Shown here one piece after another: positions 105 through 17,697 of a DNA stretch of 17,697 bases (its first letter is position 1; the number at the start of each line of letters is the position of its first letter). Origin of the DNA: Boothiomyces macroporosus (taxonomy: Eukaryota; Chytridiomycota; Chytridiomycetes; Rhizophydiales; Terramycetaceae); the NCBI GenBank assembly GCA_027604185.1, contig JADGKB010000192.1:1-17697 (forward strand), in the 5' to 3' direction. The notes beneath the pieces were generated by a model. That model was not told the origin of the DNA. It did not search any database and saw nothing but the letters and a program-made list of their open reading frames with translations. Both the position numbers and the translations under genes were made by a program.

Positions 105-1904
105 TATCTTGAAAATCAACTACCAAATGATCACTAATCTCTCCAAACTGAACTTCATCCATCATCCCCATCTTTTTACAGACACTCCATACAAACGGGC
201 TGGTAATCATGCTAACAGTTGTAATCCCCAGTAATAAAAAGTACACTTCACTGGACAACACGTTTGAGCTACATTAATTTGAAATACCTCTTGGCTTTGG
301 ATGCAAGTACAAATGTAAACTCGCTAATCTGCCCCAAGCCTATTCCCACGAGGAAACTGTTTTTCGTTGTTTGCCGGAATATAAAGTACATTACTAGGAA
401 CACGATAAATACTTTTAAACTTAGTATTAGCACTGTTAGGAATATTAATAGCAGTCCTTCGCTATAGAGGAATGATGGGTAGATGTGCAATCCGATACTT
501 GCAAAAAATAAACTGCTGAAAAAGGTATGGATGGGTAATAGTGATTGCTGTACTTCATGTGATAGTTTTGGATTACTGGCTATAACTACTCCGCAAACAA
601 AACAACTTAGTTCTACAGATTGATGAAACGCTTCTCCCAACTTGATGGTGAATATGCATATTGCAATTGATGAAAGCATAAATAGTGTGTAATTCTTTTT
701 GTTGAGTTGTAAAAGTTTGATTATTGGTGTTTTGAGGATAAAACAAATTGATAGGAATAAAATGAGGAATCCTAATAGCTTCAATATGCTTAAAAGCACA
801 TCTTGATTCTTTTGTAGCACTGGTAGGATGGCGATAAGTAATCCCAGCATGATATCCTGTGCTACCAATATTCCAACTATATTTCTGGCATAGATGCGAT
901 CCATTTCATTTTGCTTTAGAAACGATAATACAATAACAGTACTGCTGAGGAACAAACATTCGCCAATTACAATACTGGGTAAATATCCATTCTTGAAATA
1001 CATTCCGATTAATACTGTTACAGTGATAGTGAACAGCAAGAGCAATAGAGAGCCTACTAGTGCAACCGACCATACTTTTTTCAGTTTCTGTATATTAAAC
1101 TCCAACCCTAAAAAGAACATTATAAAAATGATTCCCAACCCTCTTGACAGAGTTTCCAATTGAATCACATTGAAAATCAAGTCGTTTGAAGATAGAATTA
1201 TCCCGGCTAGCACAAATCCAAAAAAAGTAGGAAGGTTGAGGAAATAACAGAGTAAGCCTACAACAAAACATGTGAATAGGATTGAGCTGAAATCATCCAA
1301 TAGTTTTTCATCTTCATAGAATCCAGTTTGATCTCCAAGTTTGTTTTTCACATACCTATATTACAAGCAATTACCAATCACCATCAGAATTGATTAGCGA
1401 GTCATTCTTTTTAATTAGCGTTTCTATATCCCCCTTTGTTTGTTTCATGAATTCATTCTGATTCAGTTCTTTTTCCAGGTTGTGTGATTTCTCTGACAAA
1501 TCTTCAATCAAGCCACCCAATACATTTTCAGTCTTGTTTTGTCTACTAGTCTGTTTATCCAGTCTATCCTGTTCATTCGCCAGCTTTTCTGTCTTTGCTT
1601 TTATTACCAGTTTCTGAAACTGTTCTATAATCAAAGAAGTTTCTTGTTCCACAAAGTTATCCAAATCATCAATGGTTTTCGATTGCAGAATGCTACTGTA
1701 TATTTCTAGGGTATTTGTAAGCACTTGCGTGAGGTCTTCTATCCGCTCCATCCGATGTTCGAATACCTGTGATTGGTTTGCATTTTTCAATTTCTTTTGG
1801 TTGAGGATATTTATTAATTTCTGTTTCTGCTGGTTGAGTTGATTCAGATTGAAAGAGTTTAAATTCAAGCATAGTATTGTTGAGAGCAAGATGAGAATTC
1901 TCAT
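94..1904 (-). CDS. TMCO3: TMCO3-like monovalent cation/proton antiporter (CPA2 family), three exons
   Basis: Exons are 1904-1375, 1355-288 and 268-94 (590 aa), joined over two 19-nt introns. An N-terminal hydrophobic segment (about 1-15, MRILILLSTILCLNLNS) looks like a signal peptide. Residues about 20-170 are Gln/Lys/Glu-rich and predicted coiled coil. From about residue 200 there is a multi-pass Na+/H+-exchanger domain with FMFFLGLEFN, VETLS-like and GQISEFTFVLASKAK segments that align in order with human TMCO3. Both splices restore the family sequence: the first gives GDWYVKNKLGDQ, the second SKAKSSNVLSSEVY followed by LLLGITTVSMITSPFVW. Coiled coil plus CPA2 exchanger in one chain is the TMCO3 architecture; a role in K+/H+ or Na+/H+ exchange in an internal membrane is inferred from the family. 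The start is the first ATG, giving the signal peptide. The TGA stop lies inside the minisatellite. Confidence 0.93.
269..287 (-). other. 19-nt intron 2 of the antiporter gene
   Basis: Sequence GTATTTCAAATTAATGTAG, phase 2 (AG|C = Ser). TTAAT branch-like site lies four bases from the end. Removal restores the last transmembrane segments; retention ends translation at TAG. Confidence 0.93.
1356..1374 (-). other. 19-nt intron 1 of the antiporter gene
   Basis: Sequence GTAATTGCTTGTAATATAG, phase 2 (TG|G = Trp). Removal joins the coiled-coil exon to the exchanger exon in frame. Retention gives TGG TAA, an immediate stop. Confidence 0.92.
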
Positions 1905-2015
1905 TTTTGGAAAAAGTTAAAAATTTTAAACTTTAGAAATAAGGTTATTAGACTGTATTAACAACAGTGGTGTTAAAATGGATTGTCTCGTGAAGAATAA
2001 AGAAAGATTAAAGCC

Positions 2016-2021
2016 AAAAAA
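2016..2021 (-). terminator. RNA polymerase III T-run terminator of tRNA-Gly
   Basis: Six T on the minus strand directly follow the tRNA discriminator base, as expected for pol III termination. Confidence 0.85.
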
Positions 2022-2092
2022 TGCAACAGCCGGGAATCGAACCCGGGGCGCACGCTTGGAAGGCGAGCATGTTACCTCTACACTACTGTTGC
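2022..2092 (-). tRNA. tRNA-Gly (anticodon UCC)
   Basis: The minus strand folds as a 71-nt cloverleaf. Acceptor GCAACAG pairs with CTGTTGC, the D-stem is GUG/CAU, the anticodon loop CTTCCAA carries TCC (2058-2060), the variable loop has four bases, and the T-arm CCGGG TTCGATT CCCGG is perfect and contains the pol III B box. The discriminator base is A. No CCA is encoded and there is no intron. The second pair of the anticodon stem is a U-U mismatch. It lies between the antiporter promoter and the small LITAF-like gene. Confidence 0.97.
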
Positions 2093-2307
2093 TACAGTAG
2101 CCTTGCCAGAATTGCGGCCAGTTGTTAAAGTTATTTGATAGCTTTTACACTAATGATGCGCGTAAACTGGAGCATTTCATATGGCACGCAATCAAGTTTA
2201 GAAACGATATTGATCAATTAAAACGCTCAATTGTACTTTGTACTACAAAGTGATCATGTGGGGGATTGACACAAAGGTACCAACTGCCAGTGAGTTTTTT
2301 GTACTGG

Positions 2308-2523
2308 ATGGTAAAGCCTCCAGAAACAAAAACAATTCACTGCGAAAAATGCGACAAGGACCAGTTATTTAAAAGAAAGGAAGTCCTACATATAATGGGC
2401 ACAATATTGTGTTGTTTATTTGTATGCTTTCCAACTTTTTCTAGATTGAGAATATCTTACTTTGTGTATGAATGCACTGTTTGTAGAAAGCAAGTAAAAG
2501 CAGAAGATACAAATAAAAAATAG
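2308..2523 (+). CDS. Small LITAF-like zinc-binding membrane protein
   Basis: A 71-aa protein from the first in-frame ATG. It has a CEKC pair near the N-terminus, a hydrophobic stretch (HIMGTILCCLFVCF) and a CTVC pair near the end (ECTVCRKQV). The CxxC - hydrophobic - CxxC order is that of the LITAF domain, which binds one zinc ion and sits as a monotopic anchor on the cytosolic face of endosomal membranes. It lacks the Pro/Gln-rich N-terminus of the three LITAF genes at 10642-12353 and is much diverged from them. The frame stays open upstream to a TGA at 2251-2253 but offers no earlier ATG, so 2308 is the simplest start; a small upstream exon cannot be excluded. An AATAAA (2512-2517) sits inside the coding region just before the TAG stop. 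Confidence 0.68.
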   Translation: MVKPPETKTIHCEKCDKDQLFKRKEVLHIMGTILCCLFVCFPTFSRLRISYFVYECTVCRKQVKAEDTNKK

Positions 2524-2724
2524 CCTTATTTTTAACAATCAACTTAATTATTAATTTGCTTTGTTTAGTAGCTGTGCTTTTAACTTGTAAGCAGCCATTT
2601 TCATTTCCAGCCAATTACTTTTGCAACTGTTATCCAATCAAAGTAACTCTAAGCCAACTATTACCTAACAAAGTAACTATTAGGTACCAATCAAAGAATA
2701 GCATAAGTAAAATATTTTTTACAA
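2524..2724 (+). promoter_or_regulatory. CCAAT-rich region upstream of the Nudix gene
   Basis: No gene is seen here. Three CCAAT boxes (2611-2615, 2634-2638, 2687-2691) occur, and the words ccaatcaaag and caaagtaact are each present twice between 2634 and 2694, suggesting a small duplicated promoter element. No clear TATA box. Confidence 0.45.
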
Positions 2725-3178
2725 ATGCAAAGAGTCAAGGAAATCTCTTACGGCATAGTTTGCTTATTCGAAAACAAAGTTCTATTGATAAAACAAACCA
2801 GCGGGTAATTCAATCTTACTCAGACACCACTGGACACTAACCAAAGGCCATCAGGAAAAAGGAGAAACACCGCTGGAAACAGCAAAACGAGAATTGCTAG
2901 AAGAAACTAATCTAAAAGCTAGTAATAGTAATTAACCAGACATTCTATTGAACGGTAAAATGTTTTCAAACAAGTATCAGTTTCAGAGACGGGAAAAGCT
3001 TGTTGATAAAGAGAACCATTTCTTTGTTGGAGCTGTTAGTGATATTTCTGGGTTTAAGGTTCAAGAAGAGGAAGTGGAAGATTACCAATGGGTACCGATT
3101 GCTGAATCATTGGAGTTGGTAACCTTTGACACGGATAAACAGGTCTTGGTTGAAATTATGAATGAACTGAAAAAATAA
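2725..3178 (+). CDS. NUDT2: NUDT2-like Nudix hydrolase (Ap4A hydrolase type), three exons
   Basis: Exons 2725-2804, 2824-2921 and 2940-3178 encode 138 aa. The first exon starts MQRVKEISYGIVCLFENK with the usual beta strand. The splice creates GHHWTLTKGH, very close to the HHWTPPKGH region of human NUDT2. The Nudix box runs from Gly35: GHQEKGE, then TPLETAK, then RELLEETNL (G35, E41, R49, E50, E53, E54). The metal-binding glutamates are all present, but the Gly normally near the box end is Asn56. The C-terminal DYQWVPIAESLELVTF matches the W-containing segment of Ap4A hydrolases. Predicted role: asymmetric cleavage of diadenosine tetraphosphate or related dinucleotides in the cytosol; substrate is inferred from family resemblance. 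Length is close to the 147 aa of the human enzyme. Confidence 0.88.
2805..2823 (+). other. 19-nt intron 1 of the Nudix gene
   Basis: Sequence GTAATTCAATCTTACTCAG, phase 2. Removal joins the N-terminal strand to HHWTLTKGH. The branch-like site is CTTAC. Retention gives GGG TAA. Confidence 0.92.
2922..2939 (+). other. 18-nt intron 2 of the Nudix gene
   Basis: Sequence GTAATAGTAATTAACCAG, phase 1. Removal gives ETNLKANILLNGK. TTAAC lies three bases from the end. A nested 12-nt GT-AG (2928-2939) would also keep the frame, so the donor is slightly uncertain. Confidence 0.8.
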
Positions 3179-3229
3179 GATTTTGTCTGGTTTCTGTCTT
3201 TCTACACGTTTGTATCTGCCATGTTAATT

Positions 3230-4174
3230 TTACTTGTTTTGTTTATCAGGGACAGAGTAGTCAATTGTATCTTCAAGCAAAATAGGCTTTCTTTCTTCCT
3301 TGATAGCCTTGGTATTCTTGTCTTCTTTTTTAATCACGCTCTTTTGGAGTGAGGAAGATTTCCCACTCGGTGTATCCGACAGTTTAGAATAACTGCTCTT
3401 CTTGATATCAGGTAACTTGCCAAGCACTATTACTACACTAATGATTAGAGGACTGAATTGACGGCAGTATATCGCGATTGTGAGTATCCAGTTTATCCAC
3501 AATGGCGCATTAGGAGTCTGTTGAACAATATACGCGAATGATTCGCATATACCGAGTGGAATTAGTACACACACACGTATTAAAGTCTCTTTTTTCGTTT
3601 TCTTGAACATTCCCGTCGGATCAATATTGTCTATCGAAAACTGCCGCAGTTTCAATAGAATAAATACTAGTAGTAATAATTCAAAGAATATTACATTGAT
3701 AACTATGAGGTTATCCCATAGCTGTCTACTTCCTATCCAACAGCTTGTTGTACCATCTGGGTATTCGAATCTGCATGGATTACGAAATATACGTAATACC
3801 AATCCAATTATTAGTGAGCTATATGTAATTATTCTTAGGAATATCTGTTCTCTTGCTAGTGAAGAGTAGCACACTGCTCTTTGAAAAGTAGACAAGAGTG
3901 ATACCTGATCATTAATGAACCATCCAGCTTCAGCAAAATAAACTACAATATTACATTCAATATGTGGTGTATTTAAATCAAATGATGTAGATAAAAGTAA
4001 CATTGGTGCAAGCAAAACCCATCTGACTAAACTACACGTGAATAATAATTGAAGAGAATAATTTGGCTTTAGTTGATAATAGATTACTCCTGTTACTAGT
4101 AAATCTATAGAGAAGTTTGTTACTTGGGCTTGTGGCCAAGGATTTAGTGTCAGTGTCATGTAGCATGAAGACAT
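3230..4174 (-). CDS. Seven-transmembrane, GPCR-like membrane protein
   Basis: A 314-aa protein with no visible intron. Hydrophobic segments lie at about residues 18-34, 41-63, 73-100, 110-129, 152-176, 197-218 and 226-251, giving a plausible seven-helix bundle. A Cys at the start of helix 3 (Cys74) and Cys134/Cys145 in the helix 4-5 loop could form the extracellular disulfide typical of GPCRs. After helix 7 there is a charged, Ser/Lys-rich tail of about 60 residues, expected in the cytosol. I recognise no family-defining motif (no DRY, no NPxxY), so receptor function is inference from topology. The first ATG is preceded by an in-frame TAA, supporting the start. It converges with the Nudix gene, with 51 bp between the stops. 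Confidence 0.75.
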   Translation of the reverse strand: MSSCYMTLTLNPWPQAQVTNFSIDLLVTGVIYYQLKPNYSLQLLFTCSLVRWVLLAPMLLLSTSFDLNTPHIECNIVVYFAEAGWFINDQVSLLSTFQRAVCYSSLAREQIFLRIITYSSLIIGLVLRIFRNPCRFEYPDGTTSCWIGSRQLWDNLIVINVIFFELLLLVFILLKLRQFSIDNIDPTGMFKKTKKETLIRVCVLIPLGICESFAYIVQQTPNAPLWINWILTIAIYCRQFSPLIISVVIVLGKLPDIKKSSYSKLSDTPSGKSSSLQKSVIKKEDKNTKAIKEERKPILLEDTIDYSVPDKQNK

Positions 4175-4240
4175 TAGAGAGGTGACGTTTTACCAACTAA
4201 TCGATTTTTTTAACAAGTTACAATGAAATCATTTAAGGAC

Positions 4241-4310
4241 TCACATGGGATAATTCCATCCTTTACTCGATTCTCACATGGGATAATTCCATCCTTTACT
4301 TGATTCTCAC
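4241..4310. repeat. 33-bp direct repeat, two copies
   Basis: Two near-identical 33-bp units (4241-4273 and 4274-4306, one C/T difference) plus four bases of a third. Each starts tcacatgggataattccatc. It lies upstream of the 7TM gene, in the 292-bp gap 4175-4466, in which I see no supported gene. Confidence 0.9.
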
Positions 4311-4466
4311 TATTTCTCTTTTGACAGCTACATCTTTTACCAAGATGTTGACTAATGTCATTTACGATTGATATTAAAGACAGTCTAAATATCAAATTAG
4401 ATAACTCTGGCCATTATGAAAAACGCACTTTACATGATAATAGCCAAAATGTAAATACTTTTTATA

Positions 4467-5009
4467 TTATACTTGCTCATCTCCATAATCAGGCATACTT
4501 TCATATTCCGCTTCAATAGGTTTATCCAAGCATCCAGCATGTCCCAAACAAAACAACCCACAAACAGCAAACACATAAATTAAAGTACTGGTAATCCCAC
4601 TCAACCAAAACAACAAAAATGATAAAACAAAGTAAACAGTCCATAACTGCGCTTGACTATACTTTTGTTCCAATATAGTAATCCCATCCGGCTTGCTTGC
4701 AACTAGTTTGAACCCACCAAAAAAGAAGATTCCAGAAACCAACAACCATAAATCGGTAATTAAAAAGTAAGCTACTACTATTACACTAATAAGCAAGTAA
4801 TTGTTTTGAAAGTAAATAACGTTGAATGAAGCTCTGGTTTTAAATGTGTTGAAATCTGATGGTAGTGAGAATCTGTCTTTGGCAAAAAAGTCAGAGAATG
4901 GACGGATGGATGAGAGTCTGGATTTTAGTGATGAAATTGCTTCTGGTTGGATATCGGTTATTGTTGTTGATAGTTTGTTCAGTTGGGAAGATACTTCTGG
5001 TGTAATCAT
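4467..5009 (-). CDS. PRA1-family (prenylated Rab acceptor) membrane protein
   Basis: A 180-aa protein without introns. The signature SIRPFSDFFAKDRFSLP matches the conserved RPW-x-EF-x5-F-x-P region of PRA1/YIP3 proteins, followed by RASFNVIYFQNNY, the equivalent of the R-x-NL-x-YF-x-NY motif. Two hydrophobic hairpins follow (about 69-101 and 118-160, the latter ending LGHAGCLDKP), then a short acidic tail (EAEYESMPDYGDEQV). PRA1 proteins sit in ER/Golgi membranes and bind prenylated Rab GTPases during vesicle traffic. A TATA box (5033-5041) lies just upstream. Its divergent neighbour TRAPPC13 also acts in ER-Golgi trafficking; whether the shared promoter region matters is inference. Confidence 0.9.
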   Translation of the reverse strand: MITPEVSSQLNKLSTTITDIQPEAISSLKSRLSSIRPFSDFFAKDRFSLPSDFNTFKTRASFNVIYFQNNYLLISVIVVAYFLITDLWLLVSGIFFFGGFKLVASKPDGITILEQKYSQAQLWTVYFVLSFLLFWLSGITSTLIYVFAVCGLFCLGHAGCLDKPIEAEYESMPDYGDEQV

Positions 5010-5032
5010 TTGAATTTTTTGTTTTCACAAGC

Positions 5033-5041
5033 TTTTTTATA
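5033..5041 (-). promoter_or_regulatory. TATA box of the PRA1 gene
   Basis: TATAAAAAA on the minus strand, 24-32 nt upstream of the ATG at 5009. Confidence 0.6.
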
Positions 5042-5190
5042 GACGATTTGTCCAATCAAAAGCGAATACGCGACACTTTTGGAGTTTGTTTAGATCGATT
5101 ACAAACAGAAATTCCTTTCCTGGAAACTTGAAGTTTTACTTTTATCATGATTAAACTTTAAGTATAACCTTAATCAGCTACATTAACTAA

Positions 5191-5245
5191 AACCTTAACT
5201 AAAACCTTAATTAAAACCTTAATTAAAACCTTAATTAAAAACCTT
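5191..5245. repeat. 12-bp tandem repeat in the divergent PRA1/TRAPPC13 promoter
   Basis: Four tandem units (aaccttaactaa once, aaccttaattaa three times) and a partial fifth; degenerate copies extend back to about 5166. The 296-bp gap 5010-5305 also holds a CCAAT box (5052-5056) and no gene. Confidence 0.88.
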
Positions 5246-5305
5246 GGATAACTATACCCTTCAATAATTGTTAATCTTAAAGTTTACTTTTTTTCGCGCA
5301 ATCTA

Positions 5306-6444
5306 ATGTCTTCACAGTACAATTTCCTAACACAGTCTGCTATCTCTCAAAGTACTCCGACTATCAAAACCCAGTTTCACAGTAGAATCGTTTCCGCCCT
5401 CAAGCACAGATCTTTTAACCCTCCCTTCATCTTTTGGCAACATCTACCTTGGAGAAACATTTTCTTGTTACCTGTGTGTAAACAATGATTCAGCAATACC
5501 AGTATCAGATGTAGCATTTAAAGCCGAGCTACAAACCACTTCGCAGAGGTTTACTTTGGCGGATACCATTGGCACACCTACCAATTCAACATCGGATTTA
5601 CAAGTGTCTTTGCTACCGAGACAGTCACAAGAGTTTATTTTACATCATGATATCAAGGAAATGGGTATATTATATTAATGCAGGTATCCATATATTAGTT
5701 TGCTCTGTTCATTATACGCCTACACAAGGCGACAGAACCAGGAAATTCTTTCGAAAGTTTTTCAAGTTCCAAGTGTTGAATCCCTTGTCAGTAAAAACCA
5801 GAGTTAATACGCTTGATGATCAAATAGTACTTGAAAATCAAATCCAAAACTTGGGCTCTGTTTCATTGTTTATCGATTCACTAAGGTTTGTAGAGAATGA
5901 TTTGTTTATCAAACAATCTTTTAACACTGAAATCAAAATATTACAGCCACAAGATATCCTGCAGCAAATGTATATTCTTAAACCAAGGCTAGAAGGAGAT
6001 ATTTCGAGTATAGTGTCGCCCAACCTTGGTAGGCTGGATATCCACTGGAAATCTACTCTGTGCGAGCCAGGGCATTTACAGACCAGTCAGTTGGTTCGTA
6101 AAGTACCTATCATCAATCCATTTACAATCAGTGTGCTTGAAATACCCACTGTTAAAATACAAGAACCGTTCAAGCTTCCAATTAGATTAAGAAACAATCT
6201 ATCTGGAGAACGACTCCGATTATCAGTACATGGAACTACAAAGATGCAGAATATACTATTAAGAGGATCAAATGATTTACAAGTGGGTACAGTTGATGCT
6301 GGAGGCTACATTGATTTCGAGTTGCAATTGATTGCTCTTCAGACTGGACTGCAGACCCTGTCTGGGTTGACTGTGAATGAAAAGATTTCAGGAGTGAAAT
6401 TGGAGCTTGATAATTTAGCAACAATAAACGTCTTGTCTTTTTAG
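5306..6444 (+). CDS. TRAPPC13: TRAPPC13 (TRAPP complex subunit 13, DUF974 family), three exons
   Basis: Exons 5306-5316, 5336-5664 and 5684-6444 encode 366 aa (human protein about 417). The first exon is only 11 nt and splices to give MSSHLLSLKVLRLSKPSF, matching the LALKVMRLTKPTLF start of the family. Further matches in order: LLTLPSSFGNIYLGETF, ELQTTSQRF, IHILVCSVHYT, FFRKFFKFQVLNPLSVKT, LDIHWKSTLCEPGHLQTSQL, IPTVKIQEPFKLPI, and the final LQTLSGLTVNEK. The protein is a subunit of the TRAPP III tethering complex, which works with Rab GTPases in ER-Golgi traffic and autophagy. No membrane segments are present. It is convergent with elongin B, with 66 bp between the stop codons. Confidence 0.95.
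5317..5335 (+). other. 19-nt intron 1 of TRAPPC13
   Basis: Sequence GTACAATTTCCTAACACAG, phase 2 (CA|T = His). It carries a full CTAAC branch site four bases before the end. Without the splice the ATG is out of frame with the conserved N-terminus. Confidence 0.9.
5665..5683 (+). other. 19-nt intron 2 of TRAPPC13
   Basis: Sequence GTATATTATATTAATGCAG, phase 1 (G|GT = Gly). Removal gives HHDIKEMGIHILVCSV as in the family. Retention reads into TAA at the branch site. Confidence 0.95.
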
Positions 6445-6510
6445 TATCTTGCACTAAAAACATCTCTACTAGCGCTTTATAAAGTCTTGGTTTAAAAGTA
6501 AATGAAGAGT

Positions 6511-6829
6511 TTATTCATCGTATAGTGGTTCAAATGGCGGCACATTAACAGCCTCAAACCCACCATCTTGCGATTCATCCAAATAAACCATGTACAACAC
6601 ACTATCATTAACCAGCCCCAACTGATCAATAGTACTATTATTCTCACATACGCTGTACCCTAAATTAACAATATTCACCATCCTTGGTAGACAGCAGTAA
6701 CCGAATCTGTTTGGTTTCCTTTTGCTTCTGGAGCATCTGTGCTATCGATTGCTTGAATTTGTAGATTGAATCTGTTGGTTTGGTATTTACAAATATATTT
6801 GTTTTTTGGTGCTTTACTCTAATGTACAT
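6511..6829 (-). CDS. ELOB: Elongin B, ubiquitin-like subunit, two exons
   Basis: Exons 6829-6679 and 6659-6511 encode 99 aa. Exon 1 (MYIRVKHQKTNIFVNTKPTD, then YKFKQSIAQML) matches the [23 protein letters not shown] start of elongin B. After the splice, KDGYSVCENNSTIDQLGLVN and VLYMVYLDES follow the ubiquitin-like core, and the end FEAVNVPPFEPLYDE resembles the C-terminal Pro-containing tail. Elongin B pairs with elongin C in the elongin transcription-elongation complex and in Cullin-2/5 ubiquitin ligases. The start codon is 23 bp from that of the divergent cap methyltransferase, so the two must share a promoter. The TAA stop lies inside an AATAAA. Each exon is too short to stand out alone. 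Confidence 0.88.
6660..6678 (-). other. 19-nt intron of elongin B
   Basis: Sequence GTGAATATTGTTAATTTAG, phase 1 (G|GG = Gly). It has a GTG donor and a TTAAT branch site four bases from the end. Retention meets TAA at the branch site. Confidence 0.92.
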
Positions 6830-6852
6830 TAGATTGAAAAATTGTTTGCAAA

Positions 6853-8286
6853 ATGGATCCGTTTGCTGGGAGTGAAAAGATGCTTCCTCCGCCGAATTTG
6901 TTTGATTTGCTTGAAAGAGCAGGGAGGGATCCTAGGGATGTTAGAGGGAGGAATGATCCAAGGGAGAGGAATGATCCTAGAGAGAGGAATGATCCTAGAG
7001 AGAGGAATGATCCTAGAGAGAGGAATGATCCTAGAGGGAGGAATGAGGAGAAAAGAGACGAATCAAGAACAAAAAACAACCATGAAAGAGATAAAAAGAG
7101 AAGTTTAGAACAAGAAAGACCTCGCGAATCTGTAGTAAGGCAAAAACAAGCCAAGGAAGACGTATTTTTAAAAAAGACGGAAATCAAATACCTCCAGAAA
7201 CCAAACAATATTTATCCGGATTGCTGGAAGGACTTCAAAAAACTAATTGTTGAACCAGCAAAGAAGCGCTTGGTCTTGATTGATGAAAAACTTTTGGGAA
7301 AAGTAAACGATTTGAAAAGCCAAGGACTGGACACCAAACAATTCAATCCATTTGAAAAAATCAATAGTATTTTCATTAATAGAAGTGCGGTTAAATTAGC
7401 CGAATTGGATTATTTGTATGGATTGAAATGTACTGCATTTGTTGATTTATGTGGAGGTCCAGGTGGGTTCAGCGAGTATCTGGTTTGGAAATACAAAGCC
7501 AAAGGGTACGGAATTACACTTAAAGGAAACCAAGATTACCAAATTGACAGTATCAAGAAATTCTATGGAAAAGATGAAACTGGAGACTTGACAAATATCG
7601 ATAATATCAATGATTTTTGTTCTCTTGTGCCACAAGTGGATTTGGTAGTTGCTGATGGAGGCTTTAGTGTTCTCAATGATGAGGTAAATCAGGAAGAGCA
7701 ATCCAAAGAACTTTTGTTAAGTCAAACATTAACTGCATTAAAAGTACTCGCAAAGAATGGAACCTTTGTTTTAAAATTGTTTGAAACAAAGACTGTATTC
7801 ACAGTTGAATTGCTATATCTGTTGTACTTGGCATTTGAAAAAATATCTCTTGTAAAGCCGAAATCTAGCAGACCGACAAACTCTGAAAAGTAATTATAGC
7901 TAAGATAGATTTGTGATTTGCAAAAACAAGACTGATTCACCAGATTTAATCAAATACTTTGAAAAAATACTCAAAGAATTCAGCAAACTAAAACAGCAAT
8001 TGATTCCAATCAGATCTGGGCATAAACACCATCCAAGCGGATACATTCCATTCGATGAAAAGATTGAGTTACAACTAAACGATGTAAATGAAATACTTGA
8101 TTGGAATATTGTTGAAAAAGATGAAAAGTTTATCGATTATATAGAGAATTATAATCTAACGTGAGTAATTATTAACCTAGCTCACTGATTAAATTAAAAA
8201 AAGCATTGGAAAATAGGGAAATTGTTGATCAAGAGTATATTGGACGACAACTTTGTGCTGAATTTGGTATTCCTTTTAAAGAATAA
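6853..8286 (+). CDS. CMTR1: CMTR1-like mRNA cap 2'-O-ribose methyltransferase (FtsJ/RrmJ fold), three exons
   Basis: Exons 6853-7889, 7909-8160 and 8181-8286 encode 464 aa. Residues about 25-100 are a charged, low-complexity tail with a six-residue repeat (RNDPRE). The SAM-binding motif is FVDLCGGPGGFSEYL (from about 196). The K-D-K-E catalytic tetrad of cap 2'-O-methyltransferases is complete: Lys181 (NRSAVKLAELD), Asp268 (VVADGGF), Lys308 (GTFVLKLFE) and Glu345 (SSRPTNSEKFVICKNK). The family methylates the 2'-OH of the first transcribed nucleotide of capped mRNA in the nucleus. Compared with human CMTR1 (835 aa) it lacks the G-patch and the C-terminal guanylyltransferase-like and WW regions. 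The last exon adds SLIKLKKALE and the family-like ending LCAEFGIP. The stop lies within AATAAA (8282-8287). Confidence 0.93.
6949..7047 (+). repeat. 18-bp in-frame tandem repeat in the cap methyltransferase gene
   Basis: Five 18-bp units (6949-7038, aggaatgatcctagagag and close variants) plus a partial sixth encode RNDPRE repeats. A degenerate copy precedes the array. Purine-rich on the coding strand; likely variable in length. Confidence 0.95.
7890..7908 (+). other. 19-nt intron 1 of the cap methyltransferase gene
   Basis: Sequence GTAATTATAGCTAAGATAG, phase 2 (AA|A = Lys). Removal links the catalytic Glu region SRPTNSE to KFVICKNK. Retention gives AAG TAA. Confidence 0.95.
8161..8180 (+). 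other. 20-nt intron 2 of the cap methyltransferase gene
   Basis: Sequence GTGAGTAATTATTAACCTAG, phase 2 (AC|C = Thr). TTAAC lies four bases before the end. Retention gives ACG TGA. The downstream exon is open to a stop inside AATAAA, supporting the splice. Confidence 0.82.
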
Positions 8287-8640
8287 AAATAGGCTCATTA
8301 AATTGGATTTAGATTTGATCTAGGTTAGTTGAAATATTTCATCCAAGTTTTTCAACTTTGAAATTTTAATAATTTTTTCAAAGTTGAACAAATTTAAAAA
8401 TGTATCCAAAAGTCAACAATTTGCAACATCTTGCAGATCCAAAGTATCGCTGTTCCCGAATTTTCATGACCAACTTGCTAATACACTGAAGGTTTTTAGA
8501 ACCCAGCAAGCGGCACTTTTTACGAAATTGAGTCGACTATTTATATGGAGTGAAGCAATGAGCCTTGTTAACCAGATTAAACTTTCAACCAATCATAATA
8601 TTATTTGTATTAAAAAGTACTAAGATTAAATACATTCGAA
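8287..8640 (+). repeat. Intergenic stretch with a perfect 13-bp inverted repeat
   Basis: The gap between the cap methyltransferase and the single-pass membrane protein holds no supported gene. At 8351-8363 and 8376-8388 the word ttcaactttgaaa and its reverse complement flank a 12-base A/T loop. It could be a hairpin near the transcript end or promoter; nothing ties it to a function. Confidence 0.7.
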
Positions 8641-9067
8641 TGGCAGCCCATCCTATCCTTGTTCACACCACTCACACGACTACTGCTACTAGTACTATAG
8701 TAATGACCAGTACAGCAGTAGCAGCTAATGCAGTTGCAAACAGTACTCAAGCAGCGGATTCAACCCAGCAGTCATCATCTATACCAATACTACCGATTAT
8801 TTTGGTTATTTTAATAATAGCAGCAGCGATTATTGGATTCATTTTTACAGAAAAAAGAAGGAAATAGTACCTGAACAGAGCAATATTAAAGAAATCAGTC
8901 AGCCAATAGATTTACCCGAAATTAAAGATATACAATTCAGTTCGGATGATTTTAGGGTTTCGCAGTTGCTCAAAGTAGTTGATGGGCAAGCTAAAGATGA
9001 TGGGCAAGCTAAAGATGATGGACAAGCTAAAGATGATGGGCAAGCTAAAGATGATGGACAAGTTTAA
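8641..9067 (+). CDS. Single-pass membrane protein with Asp/Gln/Lys repeat tail; apparent -1 frameshift
   Basis: From ATG 8641 the frame encodes a Thr/Ser/Ala-rich N-terminus of about 50 residues, one strong transmembrane helix (IPILPIILVILIIAAAIIGF) and basic residues TEKRRK, then stops at 8865-8867. A different frame stays open across and beyond this point (KEIVPEQSNIKEISQPIDLP, then IKDIQFSSDDFRVSQLLKVV and four copies of DGQAKD) to TAA at 9065-9067. Reading one A more in the A6 run at 8851-8856 joins the two frames exactly after the helix as FIFTEKKKEIVPEQ. No intron of the local type fits. Causes could be a homopolymer sequencing error, a true frameshift mutation or ribosomal slippage. 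Topology: no signal peptide, so probably N-out, C-in. I recognise no family. AATAAA lies at 9077-9082. Confidence 0.55.
8981..9067 (+). repeat. 18-bp tandem repeat encoding DGQAKD
   Basis: Four 18-bp units (gatgggcaagctaaagat and one-base variants, 8981-9052) and a truncated fifth ending in the TAA stop. Same period as the repeat in the cap methyltransferase but unrelated sequence. Confidence 0.95.
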
Positions 9068-9342
9068 ATAGATTAGAATAAAAATATTGGGTTAGAAAGT
9101 ATCTTTAAAATTATGATGCTTGTGTATTTAAGCGGGGGTTGGTCTATACTTGTTCCTACTGTTTCCTTGACACTAGCTTAAAAAGTGTACTTGACTCGGA
9201 TATATGGCAATTGGATTGTACCAGGTAAGATACATTAAAAGTTTCTTGACTTTATAGTACTTCTCTTTTAATACTAGTTTGTGATTTTTGTAAAGAACCA
9301 ATCTTTTAAAAGGGAAATTTAAAGATTATAGAAATTGAAATT
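9068..9342. other. Convergent intergenic region, nothing recognised
   Basis: It holds the 3' end of the membrane-protein gene (AATAAA 9077-9082) and the 3' flank of the thioredoxin-fold gene. I see no further gene or structured RNA. Confidence 0.5.
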
Positions 9343-10031
9343 TTAGTTTTTTGCCAAATCTTTCCAGTATTCGACTTGTCCCATGTAACTAACTTTACCA
9401 TTTTCCACTACGAGAAGAGCAGGGATGAACCTACAGCGAGGCGCTTTGATGTGATAAATATCATGAAACCTGTCATCAAAATCCACAATATGTGGAATGT
9501 CTTGAGGAGCTTCTTCTAATTTTGCTTTAACTTTTTCCAAACTAAAAGTGTGATGGTTACCTTTCTCTGCTAAAATTCTATATAAACCCCTATCCATGTT
9601 AACGGAAACCAATTGGGCATTTTCTGGTAGCATTTTTGAAACGTCTTGCATAGTTGGAATTGAAAACCCACATGAAGTACTCCAATCAAAGTTAATATAA
9701 AATTACAGAATACAACTATAGTTTTTGCTAGAGTGGAAACTTTCAAATCATTAAGGTAACTTGCTCCATCAAATATAGAATAATCAAAGTCGGATCCGGT
9801 TATCGGGTAAATATAATCACAGTGAAATTGCTGATATTTATTCCAATAACCGCATAATTCTTCGTAAGTTGGATTTTCTGGATCTTCAACTGTGAAATAA
9901 TTATTCCTTACTACAAATATCTCATAATGAATGTTATAGAATGCGCGAAGTTGGTCTTTTGGAATTTCGGTTGGATCATATTTCCAATTCGGAATCGCTT
10001 TTCTGCTTGGTGGAATGTCCGGATTGGTCAT
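9343..10031 (-). CDS. Thioredoxin-fold protein with a single active-site Cys (CGFS), two exons
   Basis: Exons 10031-9707 and 9686-9343 give 222 aa. The N-terminal about 95 residues (MTNPDIPPSRKAIPNWKYDP onward) are not recognised. From about residue 100 it reads like a thioredoxin/TlpA-type fold: AKTIVVFYWSTSCGFSIPTM (core strand plus active-site loop, Cys114), LVSVNMDR (second strand), then FIPALLVVENGKVSYMGQ with a probable cis-Pro. The usual second Cys of CxxC is Ser117, so it would be monothiol. No signal peptide or membrane segment. The exon junction needs an intron with a GT donor and a TG acceptor; the only nearby AG acceptor (27 nt) leaves the wrong frame and breaks the domain. A TATA box lies at 10056-10063. 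The specific family is uncertain. Confidence 0.78.
9687..9706 (-). other. 20-nt intron of the thioredoxin-fold gene, GT-TG ends
   Basis: Sequence GTAATTTTATATTAACTTTG, phase 1 (T|AT = Tyr). The donor and the TTAAC branch site with four following bases match the other introns, but the last two bases are TG. A missing A in the assembly (true end TTTAG) would also explain it. Confidence 0.65.
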
Positions 10032-10078: not shown

Positions 10079-10251
10079 CCATGTGGTCAGATTTTGATTG
10101 GATGATTCTTGTGATCGAAACACAAACTTTATTATTCTAATTCTTGTGATCGAGACAAAAACCTTATTATTCTGATTCTTGTGGTTAAGACACAAACTAA
10201 AATTTGTGCCTCTGCTCCCATGTGGGTAGATTTTGATTGAGTGATTATTGT
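10079..10251. repeat. Nested imperfect repeats between the thioredoxin-fold gene and 10318
   Basis: Two tandem 35-bp units (10105-10139, 10140-10174, starting attcttgtgatcga) and a diverged third from 10175 lie between two copies of a separate 34-bp word (10079-10112 and 10218-10251, containing agattttgattg). No gene is supported here. Confidence 0.75.
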
Positions 10252-10641: not shown

Positions 10642-11022
10642 TTAAATCATCTTTTTGGTTCCAACAAGCATTCCGCAATTGGAACATCTATGGTTGGTGT
10701 CTTTGCAAGTATCAATGACACATGGCACCCAAGCTAAACAGCAGCACACTAGACAAGTACCAAATACAGCAACCCAACCTGCTGCACCCATAACTTTTTC
10801 GGTCATAGAAACACCTTGTTGTTTGCAATTAATACAAGTAATCGGCTGTGGAAATTCCCCGAATACAGCTGGTGCTACATACATTGGAGCTTGAGGTCCT
10901 GGAGCAGAGGTAATTGGGGTTGATTGCTGGACAACATATTGAGCTTGAGGAGGTTGTGGCTGACCAGGGGTTTGTTGGTATTGTGGAGGGTAGGTTGGTG
11001 CTTGTTGATTTGTCTTTTCCAT
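10642..11022 (-). CDS. LITAF-domain protein 1 of tandem cluster
   Basis: A 126-aa protein without introns. Residues 1-59 are Pro/Gln-rich with a PPxY motif (PPQY, 12-15), a ligand for WW domains of NEDD4-type ubiquitin ligases. The LITAF domain spans 60-126: ITCINCKQQ (Cys63, Cys66), a Cys-rich hydrophobic segment (WVAVFGTCLVCCCLAWVP), then HRCSNCGMLVG (Cys113, Cys116). The four Cys bind zinc and the hydrophobic part dips into the membrane. Family members act on late endosomes and lysosomes and recruit ubiquitin-ligase and ESCRT partners. AATAAA follows the stop at 10637-10632. It shares the ending KKMI with its two neighbours, so the three arose by duplication. Confidence 0.92.
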   Translation of the reverse strand: MEKTNQQAPTYPPQYQQTPGQPQPPQAQYVVQQSTPITSAPGPQAPMYVAPAVFGEFPQPITCINCKQQGVSMTEKVMGAAGWVAVFGTCLVCCCLAWVPCVIDTCKDTNHRCSNCGMLVGTKKMI

Positions 11023-11205
11023 TTATTAGCAAGGATTTCTTGTTCCAAAAAGAGTGTGTGGCACAGAAGGCTTGTGTTCTTTGGGACAAAAGTTTCAAAT
11101 TGTTGACAGTGGGAAAAAGAACGTAAAATGCACCTCTAGTTCCGAATTATTTCCTCGGTTGATTCCAAATTCGCAATTTTGCTTATCTATTATTTATTTC
11201 AAGAT

Positions 11206-11823
11206 TTAAATCATCTTCTTTGTACCAGCAACCATACCACAATTAGCGCATCTGTGGTTGGTATCCTTGCAAGTGTCAATTACAAATGGAACCCAAGCGC
11301 AAGGCCAGCATAATAAGCAGGTAGCACAAGCTGCAATCCAGGTAGCAGCACCATTGGTCTTTTCAACTATAGACATTCCTTGTTGTTTGCAGTTCATGCA
11401 GGTAATTGGTTGTGAGTATTCAGAGAATACGGTGTTCATTACTGTCATTGGAGCTTGCGGACCAGGAACTTGAGTGATAGGAGCGCTTTGCTGAGGTTGA
11501 TACACTTGTGGTTGGTAAGTCTGTTGAGGAGCTGGTTGAAATGACTGTTTAATATCCGCAGCTGGCATCCCTGGCTGAGGGTTGACTACTCCGATAGGTT
11601 GAACTCCCGGTTGATAATTTTGGAATCCTGGTTGATATGGTTGTGAAGGCTGTGGAAATTGTTGGGCATATTGCGGAGGTTCTTGTGGTGGTTGTGTTAA
11701 ATGCGCTTCTTGCGGAGGAAGCTGGACTTGTGGGGTGTACCCTTCAGGCAAAATAGTTTGAATGTTGGGAGATGGGATGTGTGGTGCAATTGGAGAATTT
11801 TGTCCGTTAGAGCTCTGGTCCAT
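11206..11823 (-). CDS. LITAF-domain protein 2 of tandem cluster
   Basis: A 205-aa protein without introns, the longest of the cluster. The N-terminal 139 residues are Pro/Gln-rich with PPQY (49-52) and several YQPG-type words (YQPGFQNYQPGVQP), likely disordered. The LITAF domain (140-205) has Cys142/Cys145 (ITCMNCKQQG) and Cys192/Cys195 (HRCANCGMVAG) around a hydrophobic segment containing CATCLLCWPCAWVPF. It is nearly identical in this domain to protein 3, while the N-terminus differs strongly in length, so repeat expansion of the tail is likely. AATAAA lies at 11198-11193. Role as for the family: endosomal adaptor for ubiquitin-linked sorting (inference). Confidence 0.92.
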   Translation of the reverse strand: MDQSSNGQNSPIAPHIPSPNIQTILPEGYTPQVQLPPQEAHLTQPPQEPPQYAQQFPQPSQPYQPGFQNYQPGVQPIGVVNPQPGMPAADIKQSFQPAPQQTYQPQVYQPQQSAPITQVPGPQAPMTVMNTVFSEYSQPITCMNCKQQGMSIVEKTNGAATWIAACATCLLCWPCAWVPFVIDTCKDTNHRCANCGMVAGTKKMI

Positions 11824-11933
11824 TTCTTTGTCAAACTTTTTTGAAGAGCCATCAAAGAGCGGTCCCGAGATTTCGCATCGACAAGACGTTCAAAATCGCT
11901 AATAGCAAATTAAAATTGAATCTATCGTATTTA

Positions 11934-12353
11934 TTAAATCATCTTTTTTACTCCTGCAACCATACCACAATTAGCGCATCTGTGGTTGGTGTCCTTACAA
12001 GTATCAATCACAAATGGAACCCAAACGCAAGGCCAGAAAAGAAGGCAAGTAGCACAAGCTGCAATCCAGACAGCAGCACCATTTGACTTGTCAGTTACAG
12101 ACATTCCTTGTTGTTTGCAGTTCATACAGGTGATGGGTTGTGGAAATTCCGAAAATGTAGTGTTCACAACCATCATCGGAGCTTGAGGGCCTGGTGCTTG
12201 CGAGACAGGAGTGTTTTGCTGAGGTTGGTATGCTTGTTGAGGAGCAGATGGTTGAGCAAGAACATATTGTGGTGGCTGCTGTGGTACTTGTCCAGTTGGC
12301 TGTTGTGGATAAGTTGGGACGTTTTGCTGTTCGTACGGTGATTTTTGATCCAT
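11934..12353 (-). CDS. LITAF-domain protein 3 of tandem cluster, with PPxY and PSAP
   Basis: A 139-aa protein without introns. The Pro/Gln-rich tail carries PPQY (27-30) and, unlike its two neighbours, a PSAP motif (35-38), the known ligand of the ESCRT-I subunit TSG101/Vps23. Human LITAF has the same pair of motif types. The domain (74-139) has Cys76/Cys79 and Cys126/Cys129 around a hydrophobic segment. A TATA box (12382-12388) is 29-35 nt upstream of the ATG. The TAA stop overlaps AATAAA (11935-11930). Recruitment of ubiquitin ligase and ESCRT on endosomes is inferred from the motifs. Confidence 0.93.
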   Translation of the reverse strand: MDQKSPYEQQNVPTYPQQPTGQVPQQPPQYVLAQPSAPQQAYQPQQNTPVSQAPGPQAPMMVVNTTFSEFPQPITCMNCKQQGMSVTDKSNGAAVWIAACATCLLFWPCVWVPFVIDTCKDTNHRCANCGMVAGVKKMI

Positions 12354-12381
12354 GATGTTAGAGTAAAGAGTTGATTCAATG

Positions 12382-12388
12382 TTTTATA
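12382..12388 (-). promoter_or_regulatory. TATA box of LITAF-domain gene 3
   Basis: TATAAAA on the minus strand, about 30 nt upstream of the ATG at 12353. Confidence 0.65.
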
Positions 12389-13126: not shown

Positions 13127-14182
13127 TTATTGGAAAACGCAGTTATTGTTGGCGAGTGCGTGGCAAGTAACGCAAGATTGAGCATTTGGGCACGTTTTGG
13201 CCCAAGATTCACCAATAGTGCCAGGAGCAGTATCTTGTTCAAAGGTTTGATGTTGGAAGAACAAATCAGTGTTTCCATAAGCATTGAGCACTACAGCAGA
13301 GTTGGTAGTAACTGAGCCAATTTGATTGAATGGAGCATTTGGTTGAGGAGAGGCCCAAACAGTCCACAATTGGGTTCCAGCTGGGAGACCAGACAAAGCC
13401 TTGAGAGATCTGTAAGCATCATTAGAGTCAGTTGTTGGAATAGCAGCACCAACAGCCTGTTTTGCTGCATCAGTAGGGCGGAATACCAATTGGAAAGGAT
13501 AAACAGGTTTGGTGACATCATTTCCATTAGCATCTTTCTTTGATACTCCAGACAGCCCAGTGAATACAGGCCAGTTGGAAGCTTTGCCAAAAGTGTGCAA
13601 AAGGACTCCTCCAGCAATGAATCCACCTTCCTTTGGTGAGATGTGGTTGGAAAAGTTGTTGGCAAAAAAGTTTAAATCGCTCTGCCCATCAATTCCAAGC
13701 ATGAAAAAGATGTTGGTTGATGGGTTATTGTCTCTAAAGAATTTGATTGCTGCACCTGGAACAATGGAGTTTGAGCCTGCGCTTGGTTGGGAAGCTAATG
13801 AAAATCTGAGAATTGCATCCTGCGCTCCTTGGAACAAACCAGTATATGGATTAGGAAGGGCATTAAATTTAACTTGTGCAACGGCACCTGCTGCATGAAC
13901 CCTCTTTTGTCTTCTTGAAGAGCCGAATAACCCCTTTTCCATTGGTAATTCGTCAGACACGGTATTGACTGTCGGATGCATATCTTCTACGAATATCAAA
14001 TCAAAGATGGAGTAGCTGTATGAGGAGGAGGTGGCAGGGCTGGAGGTAATTTCAGACCAAACCTGAGCTAATTGAGCTGAAGCCGGAGTATTTTGGAATT
14101 GCGTTTCTCCGCGTTTATGCAAGTGAGCATATGGGCATGGGTTTGCTAGAGCAACTGTCGCAAGAATGGCAAGTTTAAACAT
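13127..14182 (-). CDS. Secreted catalase-like protein, copy 1
   Basis: A 351-aa protein without introns. It has a signal peptide (about 1-13, MFKLAILATVALA) and a Kex2-type KR site (23-24), so it is probably secreted and trimmed. The catalase fold is marked by RVHAAGAVAQ (His96, equivalent of the distal catalytic His in RVVHAKGxGA), LRFSLA (Arg126-Ser128), PGAAIKFF (equivalent of GFAVKF) and FSNHISPKE. The proximal heme-ligand motif RxxxY of true catalases is not apparent in the shorter C-terminal half. The tail has several Cys: TCPNAQSCVTCHALANNNC, including a CxxCH at 337-341. Role: a heme peroxidase-like or heme-lacking extracellular protein; activity cannot be told from sequence. AATAAA overlaps the stop (13131-13126). 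Copy 2 lies 177 bp upstream. Confidence 0.85.
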   Translation of the reverse strand: MFKLAILATVALANPCPYAHLHKRGETQFQNTPASAQLAQVWSEITSSPATSSSYSYSIFDLIFVEDMHPTVNTVSDELPMEKGLFGSSRRQKRVHAAGAVAQVKFNALPNPYTGLFQGAQDAILRFSLASQPSAGSNSIVPGAAIKFFRDNNPSTNIFFMLGIDGQSDLNFFANNFSNHISPKEGGFIAGGVLLHTFGKASNWPVFTGLSGVSKKDANGNDVTKPVYPFQLVFRPTDAAKQAVGAAIPTTDSNDAYRSLKALSGLPAGTQLWTVWASPQPNAPFNQIGSVTTNSAVVLNAYGNTDLFFQHQTFEQDTAPGTIGESWAKTCPNAQSCVTCHALANNNCVFQ

Positions 14183-14359: not shown

Positions 14360-15412
14360 TTATTGGAAAACGCAGTTATTGTTGGCGAGTGCGTGGCAAG
14401 TAATGCAGGACTGGGCATTTGGACAAGTTTGAGCCCAAGATTCACCAATGGTGCCAGGAGCAGTATCTTGTTCAAAGGTTTGATGTTGGAAGAACAAATC
14501 AGTGTTTCCATAGTCATTTAGAACAACGTTGGATTTGGTGGAGATGGACCCAATTTGGGTGAATGGAGCATTTGGTTGAGGAGAGGCCCAAACAGTCCAC
14601 AATTGGGTCCCAGCTGGGAGACCAGACAAAGCCTTGAGAGATCTGTAGATATCGTTGGAATCAGTGTTTGGCAAGTTGGCAGCCACTGCTTGTTGAGCAT
14701 CAGCAGTTGGACGCATCACAACTTGGAATGGATAGACTGGTGAAGTGACTTCATTTCCTTGTGCATCGAATCTGGCAACTCTGTTGAGCCCAGTGAATAC
14801 AGGCCAGTTGGAAGCTTTGCCAAAAGTGTGCAATAAAAGACCTCCAGCAATGGCTCCACCTTCCTTTGGTGAGATGTGGTTGGAAAAGTTGTTGGTAAAA
14901 AAGTTTGGATCGTTGTTTTGTCCGTCAATTCCCAACATGAAGAAGATGTTGGCAGACGGTTGGTTTTGAATAAAGAACTTCATTGCAGCTCCAGGAACAA
15001 TGGTGGTGGTTGATGGAGTGTTTGCGAGAGAGAATCTCACGATAGCATCTTGCGCTCCTTGGAACAAACCAGTGTATGGGGATCCTGGAAGAGCATCAAA
15101 AGTAGCTTGAACTACAGCACCGGCAGCATGTACCTCCTTTTGTCTCTTTGAAGAGCTAAACCATCCTTTAACCATTGGCAATTCATCAGATGCAGTGTCA
15201 ACAGTTGGATGCATATCTTCAGTAGCGACAAGTCCGAATACATTGTAGGTAAAGGAGGTAGGGCTGGCGTTGCTGTTGTTGATTTCAGACCATACTTGTT
15301 GTAATTGAGCAGAGGTGGATTGAGAGGTAACAGTTTCGCCTCTCTTGGCCAAATGAGCATAAGGACATGGGTTAGCAAGAGCAAAGGCTGCAATGGCGAT
15401 TAGCTTGAACAT
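14360..15412 (-). CDS. Secreted catalase-like protein, copy 2
   Basis: A 350-aa paralogue of the downstream gene, same strand, no introns. Signal peptide (MFKLIAIAAFALA), NPCPYAHLAKR with the Kex2-type site, VHAAGAVVQ (distal His), VRFSLA, PGAAMKFF and FSNHISPKEGG are all kept, as is the Cys tail with CITCH. The last about 50 codons are nearly identical in DNA to copy 1 while the N-terminal halves differ more, suggesting recent duplication or gene conversion. A TATA box (15452-15459) lies 40-47 nt upstream of the ATG. The stop overlaps AATAAA (14364-14359). Strong secretion signals plus tandem copies suggest an abundant extracellular or wall-associated product (inference). Confidence 0.87.
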   Translation of the reverse strand: MFKLIAIAAFALANPCPYAHLAKRGETVTSQSTSAQLQQVWSEINNSNASPTSFTYNVFGLVATEDMHPTVDTASDELPMVKGWFSSSKRQKEVHAAGAVVQATFDALPGSPYTGLFQGAQDAIVRFSLANTPSTTTIVPGAAMKFFIQNQPSANIFFMLGIDGQNNDPNFFTNNFSNHISPKEGGAIAGGLLLHTFGKASNWPVFTGLNRVARFDAQGNEVTSPVYPFQVVMRPTADAQQAVAANLPNTDSNDIYRSLKALSGLPAGTQLWTVWASPQPNAPFTQIGSISTKSNVVLNDYGNTDLFFQHQTFEQDTAPGTIGESWAQTCPNAQSCITCHALANNNCVFQ

Positions 15413-17613: not shown

Positions 17614-17697
17614 TTAGGAGGATTGGTATTTGGTAACGGCTTTGGTTCCTTCAGATACTGCGTGTTTAGCCAATTCACCAGGAAGAATCAAACGAAC
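17614..17697 (-). CDS. H2B: Histone H2B, C-terminal 27 residues (cut by window edge)
   Basis: The minus strand reads VRLILPGELAKHAVSEGTKA then VTKYQSS and TAA. This is the invariant C-terminal helix of histone H2B, including the lysine (AVTK) that is ubiquitinated in animals and fungi. The rest of the gene lies beyond 17697. H2B pairs with H2A in the nucleosome. The terminal YQSS is a minor variant of the usual ending. Confidence 0.98.
   Translation of the reverse strand, partial: VRLILPGELAKHAVSEGTKAVTKYQSS

Follow-up and report, generated by a model that had tools for sequence, protein, structure and literature searches.

The lower size limit of spliceosomal introns, and what sets it, is still open, and the named cases of ultrashort introns come from relic nuclei, parasites and ciliates. 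Can the introns of a fungus with a full nucleus be almost uniformly as small? The question is raised by a 17,697-base contig (C192; hereafter the window, meaning this whole stretch of DNA) of the chytrid Boothiomyces macroporosus (Chytridiomycota, Rhizophydiales, Terramycetaceae; assembly 15.2 Mb, 216 contigs), which we take to be a free-living fungus. A first-pass annotation placed ten introns in the window, seven of 19 nucleotides (nt), one of 18 nt and two of 20 nt, with coordinates and lengths that are confirmed here, and it proposed almost uniformly tiny spliceosomal introns in a full nucleus. That proposal is supported by decoy runs, motif spacing, small nuclear RNAs (snRNAs) and conserved genes. 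With a probability of about 0.92, as judged from sequence, these segments would be introns of the major spliceosome, most of them shrunk nearly to the smallest size physically open to a machine that is otherwise canonical.

Intron length and geometry

Introns were sampled in the window together with twenty 10-kb stretches, 217,697 bases (218 kb) of the 15.2 Mb, and two patterns were counted over the whole genome. The gene finder, of Viterbi type, combined a 3-periodic coding model taken from long open reading frames with a flat intron length of 10–400 nt, the dinucleotide ends being the sole intron signal. With GT-AG ends it called 13, 23 and 14 introns at 19, 20 and 21 nt, placing 50 of 144 in this band, against 8/154, 1/149, 4/145, 1/155, 1/147, 1/147, 3/135, 2/159 and 2/149 for nine decoy end pairs; among the ten end pairs tried, the 19–21 nt peak arises with GT-AG only. 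A motif-trained version, whose donor and branch/acceptor motifs were derived from 80 calls of 18–23 nt, gave a share at 19–21 nt of 161/236 (lengths to 400 nt, penalty -12), 188/253 (to 120 nt) and 199/224 (to 30 nt; 55, 96 and 48 at 19, 20 and 21 nt). Retention would shift the frame or add a stop in 223 of the last 224, and extrapolating these by length gives, roughly, some 15,600 introns per assembly.

Counts of motif spacing and of loop length contain no coding model and escape the training bias of the gene model. Taking every GTAA followed by YTAAY-N(1–2)-YAG on both strands of the 218 kb, there are 26, 24 and 15 cases at 19, 20 and 21 nt, none at 17, 18, 22 or 24 nt and two at 23 nt, with a mean of 0.87 elsewhere (12–80 nt outside 17–24). 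The same count on reversed sequence gives 1, 1 and 2 at 19, 20 and 21 nt the mean being 1.09. In the complete assembly the pattern GTAAGT-N{0,30}-CTAATNTAG has 42 matches (25 at 19 nt, 9 at 20, 3 at 21, 2 at 15 and 3 at 38–40), 37 of which occupy three of the 31 allowed lengths; reversed, the pattern has 17. A loose motif count restricted to the window fails to make 19 nt prominent (seven cases there, and seven each at 16, 24 and 31 nt); the case rests on the genome.

The bulk of the introns thus lies within a few nt, at 19–21 nt, below the limit of about 25 nt that marks uniformly ultrashort introns and not far above the smallest sizes that cells are known to splice. Of the earlier claim that almost all are 19 nt long, the uniform smallness stands, and the single length gives way to this band. 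The 19-nt class is not clearly the mode: 20 nt leads in the gene model, 19 and 20 nt are about equal in the strict motif count, and the GTAAGT pattern, in which the tail is fixed at 5 nt, favours 19 nt.

Nearly fixed as well is the distance from the donor to the branch-point adenosine, here called the loop, with the tail running from there to the 3' splice site. For donors GTAA, GTAT or GTAC and a tail of 5 or 6 nt, the counts are 1 at loop 12, 1 at 13, 64 at 14, 38 at 15, 13 at 16, 2 at 17 and 0 at 18; the background, taken from loops 24–59, is about 2.7 for each length. In the model set, all 216 introns of 18–23 nt have a branch-like match at a lenient threshold (consensus YTAAY); loops 14 and 15 hold 182 of them, loop 13 none, and 14 branch sites placed at loops 9–12 are probably misassigned. 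A total length of 18 nt requires a 4-nt tail, as in the window intron 2922–2939. In a P450 gene, moving the donor of a 17-nt call three bases upstream gives an intron of 20 nt with loop 15 and tail 5.

From sequence, then, the proposed intron has a GTA donor, a strong YTAAY branch site with its adenosine at position 14–16 (a 14–16 nt lariat loop) and 4–7 nt to the 3' splice site. U1 and U6 would pair with GUA(A) and U2 with YUAAY for recognition, and the 3' splice site would be the first AG about 5–6 nt past the branch point, since a polypyrimidine tract would not fit. The abrupt drop below loop 14 may reflect a steric limit on the approach of the 5' splice site to the branch helix.

Several points weigh against this reading. 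The gene models come from the sample described above, and the model to 30 nt was trained on 18–23 nt introns and prefers tails of 4–8 nt, which builds part of the geometry into its result; that a steric limit lies at the edge between loops 13 and 14 is our reading of the length distribution. A search for U5 returned no match, but it returned none in a control either. SF1 has calls of 21, 22 and 24 nt, the last counting against the reading, and a 30-nt intron is called at L021. The run to 120 nt made 48 of its 253 calls above 25 nt, 47 of these falling in genes of 80 or more residues. Motif pairs built on four six-base donors exceed the control at 61–100 nt (19 vs 10) and 201–600 nt (139 vs 91). 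Finally, Isy1 contains a 46-nt segment (L043:1761–1806) with GTAAGT and CTAATGTTAG ends and a CTAAT branch signal, whose removal fits the gene and which stays whole when long introns are disallowed. This segment is a credible longer intron, its tail of 6 nt being as in the tiny introns and only its loop longer.

Some of these points feed the most serious alternative, that the tiny introns stand alongside a substantial longer class that was missed or dismissed as artefact. The flat-prior run places 53 of 144 introns at 101–400 nt, but the decoy pairs yield 59–76 calls there, above the GT-AG figure. No general excess of longer introns up to 80 nt was found in the 218 kb, the count of GTAA…YTAAY…YAG being near chance at 22–80 nt, and GTAAGT…CTAATNTAG at 46–76 nt has 9 matches in the whole genome against 14 in the control. 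Nor do the four six-base donors depart from control at 31–60 nt (7 vs 8) or 101–200 nt (23 vs 25). Four genes were re-run with lengths limited to 25 nt and a milder penalty. In IFT140 this replaces a 68-nt call by a tiny intron and an exon, the latter aligning to solved IFT140, and a 95-nt call in that gene also dissolves. We read most of the 48 calls above 25 nt, few of which were inspected, as artefacts. The Isy1 call does not dissolve, and for this reason a substantial longer class is rated higher than it would otherwise be, though it is still unlikely. Longer introns are not absent but rare, and the Isy1 intron and the two bins above control make a minor longer class possible. The first-pass claim that no confidently identified gene needs a longer intron is to be qualified in that the genome is not wholly free of them.

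At the 5' end of Isy1 (L043:1225–1300), which bears on a second branching-factor difference of Stentor, two intron-like stretches lie one base apart, and the gene finder has to place an exon of 1 nt between them. The spliced Isy1 model scores 206.8 bits against at most 56.8 for its pieces; this score is not counted for the tiny introns, since the model includes both the 1-nt exon and the 46-nt intron.

Homology across the junctions

Nip7, FPPS, PIN1 and CCT4 were chosen as recognisably conserved. All 180 residues of Nip7 align to solved Nip7 (8esq, chain l) with no gap across introns of 19, 20 and 19 nt. Relative to solved homologues, FPPS passes four junctions without a gap (introns of 20, 19, 20 and 20 nt) and PIN1 three (19, 20 and 20 nt), while CCT4 passes six (22, 21, 20, 21, 20 and 23 nt), with only two aligned residues beyond the final one. 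On a larger scale, the IFT140 model, assembled by removal of 19 predicted introns that measure 16–23 nt (lengths limited to 25 nt), runs to 1,337 residues and matches solved IFT140 at residues 12–146, 163–513 and 576–1322; its two 16-nt calls are doubtful. For U2AF65 the best unspliced stretch reaches 230.7 bits, below the curated cut-off of 310.3, and removal of four tiny introns raises this to 342.7.

Deposited records already contain some of these introns. The predicted CCT4 lies on C18 (L027), and the deposited B. macroporosus CCT4 is 100% identical over 99% of the spliced model; the depositors' model removes five of the six introns identically and ends differently. Elsewhere, deposited models from Terramyces and Boothiomyces (P0001, P0002, P0121, P0123, P0210, P0212) skip, retain or misplace tiny introns. 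TRAPPC13 is wrong at such introns in P0001 and P0002, the latter (sister strain JEL0838) opening with MSSQYNFLTQ, which is the translated first intron (5317–5335) and its flank; the thioredoxin-like gene is wrong in P0210 and P0212, and the Terramyces CCT4 model P0123 is fused to a P450. As several deposited models are wrong at tiny introns, Terramycetaceae protein sets may need to be predicted anew with introns allowed down to about 15 nt.

Could assembly or sequencing errors, or pseudogene frameshifts, mimic introns? One of the ten window introns lacks the AG end, and the deposited model P0212, the B. macroporosus protein that matches this thioredoxin-like gene, is shortened to 160 aa. Against this stand the sharply fixed lengths and motifs and the gap-free homology restored at 15 junctions in the four conserved genes. 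The odd intron itself (9687–9706) lies in a stretch, 9560–9830, with a second copy at C204:6116–6386 (97% identical over 271 bp), and its letters are identical in both, so a sequencing error there is unlikely; the sister-strain protein P0211 (Boothiomyces sp. JEL0866) also backs the proposed join. Errors or frameshifts are thus a very improbable source of the segments as a whole. Given spacing, homology and the deposited CCT4, splicing appears the best reading by a wide margin.

Possible TTG 3' splice sites occur also at L021:401–421 and L021:3400–3419, at the usual distance past the branch adenosine, with homology support for the window case only. As a general class, non-AG 3' splice sites show no excess in the 218 kb (46 cases with no AG; 15.3 for each loop length, the background being 18.4). 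The two Cwc25 loci, on C49 and C100 (L041 and L042), are identical letter for letter over 3,111 bp, which, together with the C204 copy, suggests haplotypes or duplicates partly retained in the assembly.

The spliceosome and known ultrashort introns

Three of the snRNAs expected of a major spliceosome, U1, U2 and U6, are recognisable. U1 scores 68.8 bits, just below the gathering score of 69.5, and its 5' end, AUACUUACCUG, keeps the pairing region; U2 is present in two copies with the pairing region kept (GUGUAGUA), and in U6 the ACAGAGA is intact. The branch site is complementary to U2 and the donor to U1 and U6, and the ends are GT-AG, as in U2-type introns. U2AF65, SF1 (with SF1-HH, KH and zinc knuckles), Cwc25 and Isy1 are present, and tiny introns are predicted in all four of their genes; Cwc25 has its Gly-rich motif, with MGGGDLNLKKSWHP (GGG) in frame. 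U1, U2, U6, U2AF65, SF1 and Cwc25 look canonical at the level of their predicted sequences. That the segments are removed at the DNA level, in the manner of ciliate internal eliminated sequences (IES), or bypassed in translation is scarcely credible in a fungus in which GT-AG ends and a U2-matched branch site occur in the same genome as U1, U2 and U6.

Introns this small have precedents. In chlorarachniophyte nucleomorphs, which are intron-rich, introns are mostly 18–23 nt with GT-AG ends, 19 nt being the commonest length (654/951 in Bigelowiella natans and 496/1,011 in Lotharella oceanica) (PMC4035089). Boothiomyces resembles them in its GT-AG ends and in the small size and large number of its introns. 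Unlike these relic endosymbiont nuclei of less than 1 Mb, it has a 15.2 Mb fungal assembly in which 19 and 20 nt are about equal or 20 nt leads; the earlier statement that this is a full nucleus and no nucleomorph agrees with that size and with the presence of snRNAs and conserved nuclear genes. Mikrocytids (Mikrocytos mackini, Paramikrocytos canceri) are parasites with a reduced spliceosome of 17–19 proteins, and their nuclear introns, 224 in 179 genes, are all 16–17 nt and of conserved sequence (PMC10245619). Tiny nuclear introns of narrow length range and conserved sequence are common to them and to Boothiomyces, in which, by contrast, 218 kb alone yielded 224 intron calls and both U2AF65 and SF1 occur. 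A mikrocytid or other rhizarian source for the window, suggested by those 16–17 nt introns, is rejected, since TRAPPC13, CCT4 and a protein of the window itself match Boothiomyces. The first-pass list of precedents rightly named nucleomorphs and Stentor and was incomplete in omitting the mikrocytids. In Paramecium and Nyctotherus introns likewise form a narrow ultrashort class, longer than here, at around 25 nt (PMC5014332).

The heterotrich ciliate Stentor coeruleus offers a further comparison. It has AU-rich introns of 15–16 nt in a non-reduced nucleus with conserved U2 and U6, a loop of 10–11 nt, no strong branch consensus and a Cwc25 without the Gly-rich plug, whose absence was proposed to avoid a clash with the 10–11 nt loop (PMC9505925). 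Uniform tiny AU-rich introns, a non-reduced nucleus and conserved U2 and U6 are shared with Boothiomyces; differing from Stentor are its loop of 14–16 nt, its strong YTAAY and its retained Cwc25 Gly-rich motif, so that it does not belong to the Stentor type. The comparison fits, without proving, the idea that the Cwc25 plug tolerates loop 14 and perhaps not loop 10. In human the minimum distance between 5' splice site and branch site is about 50 nt (PMC6692369), in agreement with the earlier remark that spliceosomes normally need far more room; short introns in human are served by Smu1/RED and SPF45 (PMC6692369, PMC8363638).

Among chytrids, the excerpt on Batrachochytrium gives intron counts and shows no lengths (PMC5364385), and that of a further chytrid paper holds only a method line bearing on introns (PMC13391722). 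In the open-licence literature no report was found of intron length in Boothiomyces, Terramyces or Rhizophydiales, nor of such introns in any fungus, which is not proof of absence. Genomes with ultrashort introns are already known; what is notable is a fungus with a canonical-looking spliceosome.

A stronger form of the preferred reading, splicing of tiny introns by the major spliceosome, can be stated, and on the present sequences we put it at an even chance: in a fungus whose snRNAs and branching factors are near those of yeast and man, most introns would have come down to the hard lower limit of the canonical spliceosome, a lariat loop of 14 nt followed by a 4–6 nt tail. If true, loss of the Cwc25 plug, as proposed for Stentor, would be unnecessary for introns this small, and the human minimum of roughly 50 nt would not be intrinsic to the core machine. 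Distance alone could then pick 3' splice sites without a polypyrimidine tract, even with U2AF65 and SF1 kept. With its canonical-looking snRNAs and branching factors and its cliff at loop 14, the fungus would also offer a closer comparison to the solved yeast and human complexes.

Features of the window

The ten candidate introns of the window are listed in Table 1. GT starts and AG ends are found in nine of them; branch adenosines, placed by the best match to one branch-site matrix, are at position 14 in eight and 15 in two, and the tail is 5 nt in nine and 4 nt in one, with weak branch sites in three. Support varies among the junctions, which the first-pass annotation placed by breaks in homology or frame: junction homology is good for the introns starting at 5317, 5665, 7890, 2805 and 269, and weak or absent for those at 2922, 6660, 1356, 8161 and 9687. 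Support at 269–287 consists of the extent of the Pfam exchanger match, the alignment at the junction itself not having been inspected. The gene finder recovered five of these introns (269, 1356, 5317, 5665 and 7890), and its same run placed three longer ones in the window, of 112, 50 and 116 nt, which we take to be artefacts, though they are not disproved.

Table 1. Candidate introns of the window; loop and tail in nt
Feature	Position	Strand	Loop	Tail	Evidence and remarks
19-nt intron, Na/H exchanger gene	269..287	-	14	5	GT-AG; exchanger Pfam match spans junction
19-nt intron, Na/H exchanger gene	1356..1374	-	14	5	Frame and architecture only; branch site GTAAT
19-nt intron, NUDIX hydrolase gene	2805..2823	+	14	5	Homology across junction; branch site CTTAC
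18-nt intron, NUDIX gene	2922..2939	+	14	4	In-frame stop if retained; junction adjoins alignment gap
19-nt intron, TRAPPC13 gene, codon 4	5317..5335	+	14	5	Homology across junction
19-nt intron, TRAPPC13 gene	5665..5683	+	14	5	Homology across junction
19-nt intron, ubiquitin-like gene	6660..6678	-	14	5	Pfam match weak, below cut-off
19-nt intron, FtsJ/CMTR1-like cap methyltransferase gene	7890..7908	+	14	5	No gap at SRPTNSEK/FVICK vs CMTR1; branch site CTAAG
20-nt intron, 3' end of FtsJ/CMTR1-like gene	8161..8180	+	15	5	Motif and open frame only, no homology
20-nt intron, thioredoxin-like (by eye) gene	9687..9706	-	15	5	TTG 3' end; join backed by P0211

The exchanger gene is presumably TMCO3/KEA-like. 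The ubiquitin-like gene we take to be Elongin-B-like; its protein has no match in the PDB. Short tandem repeats lie at 1–104, where one opens the contig, and at 4240–4310, 5153–5245 and 10105–10198, off the main reading frames. Three adjacent proteins at 10642–12383 (-) carry similar LITAF-like zinc ribbons at the C-terminus, one as tested and the others by eye. A tandem pair of similar, secreted-looking proteins at 13127–14182 and 14360–15412 (-) appears catalase-like by eye, and the member that was tested has no Pfam match. At 17614–17697 (-), truncated by the end of the contig, is a C-terminal end that, read by eye, we take to be that of histone H2B.

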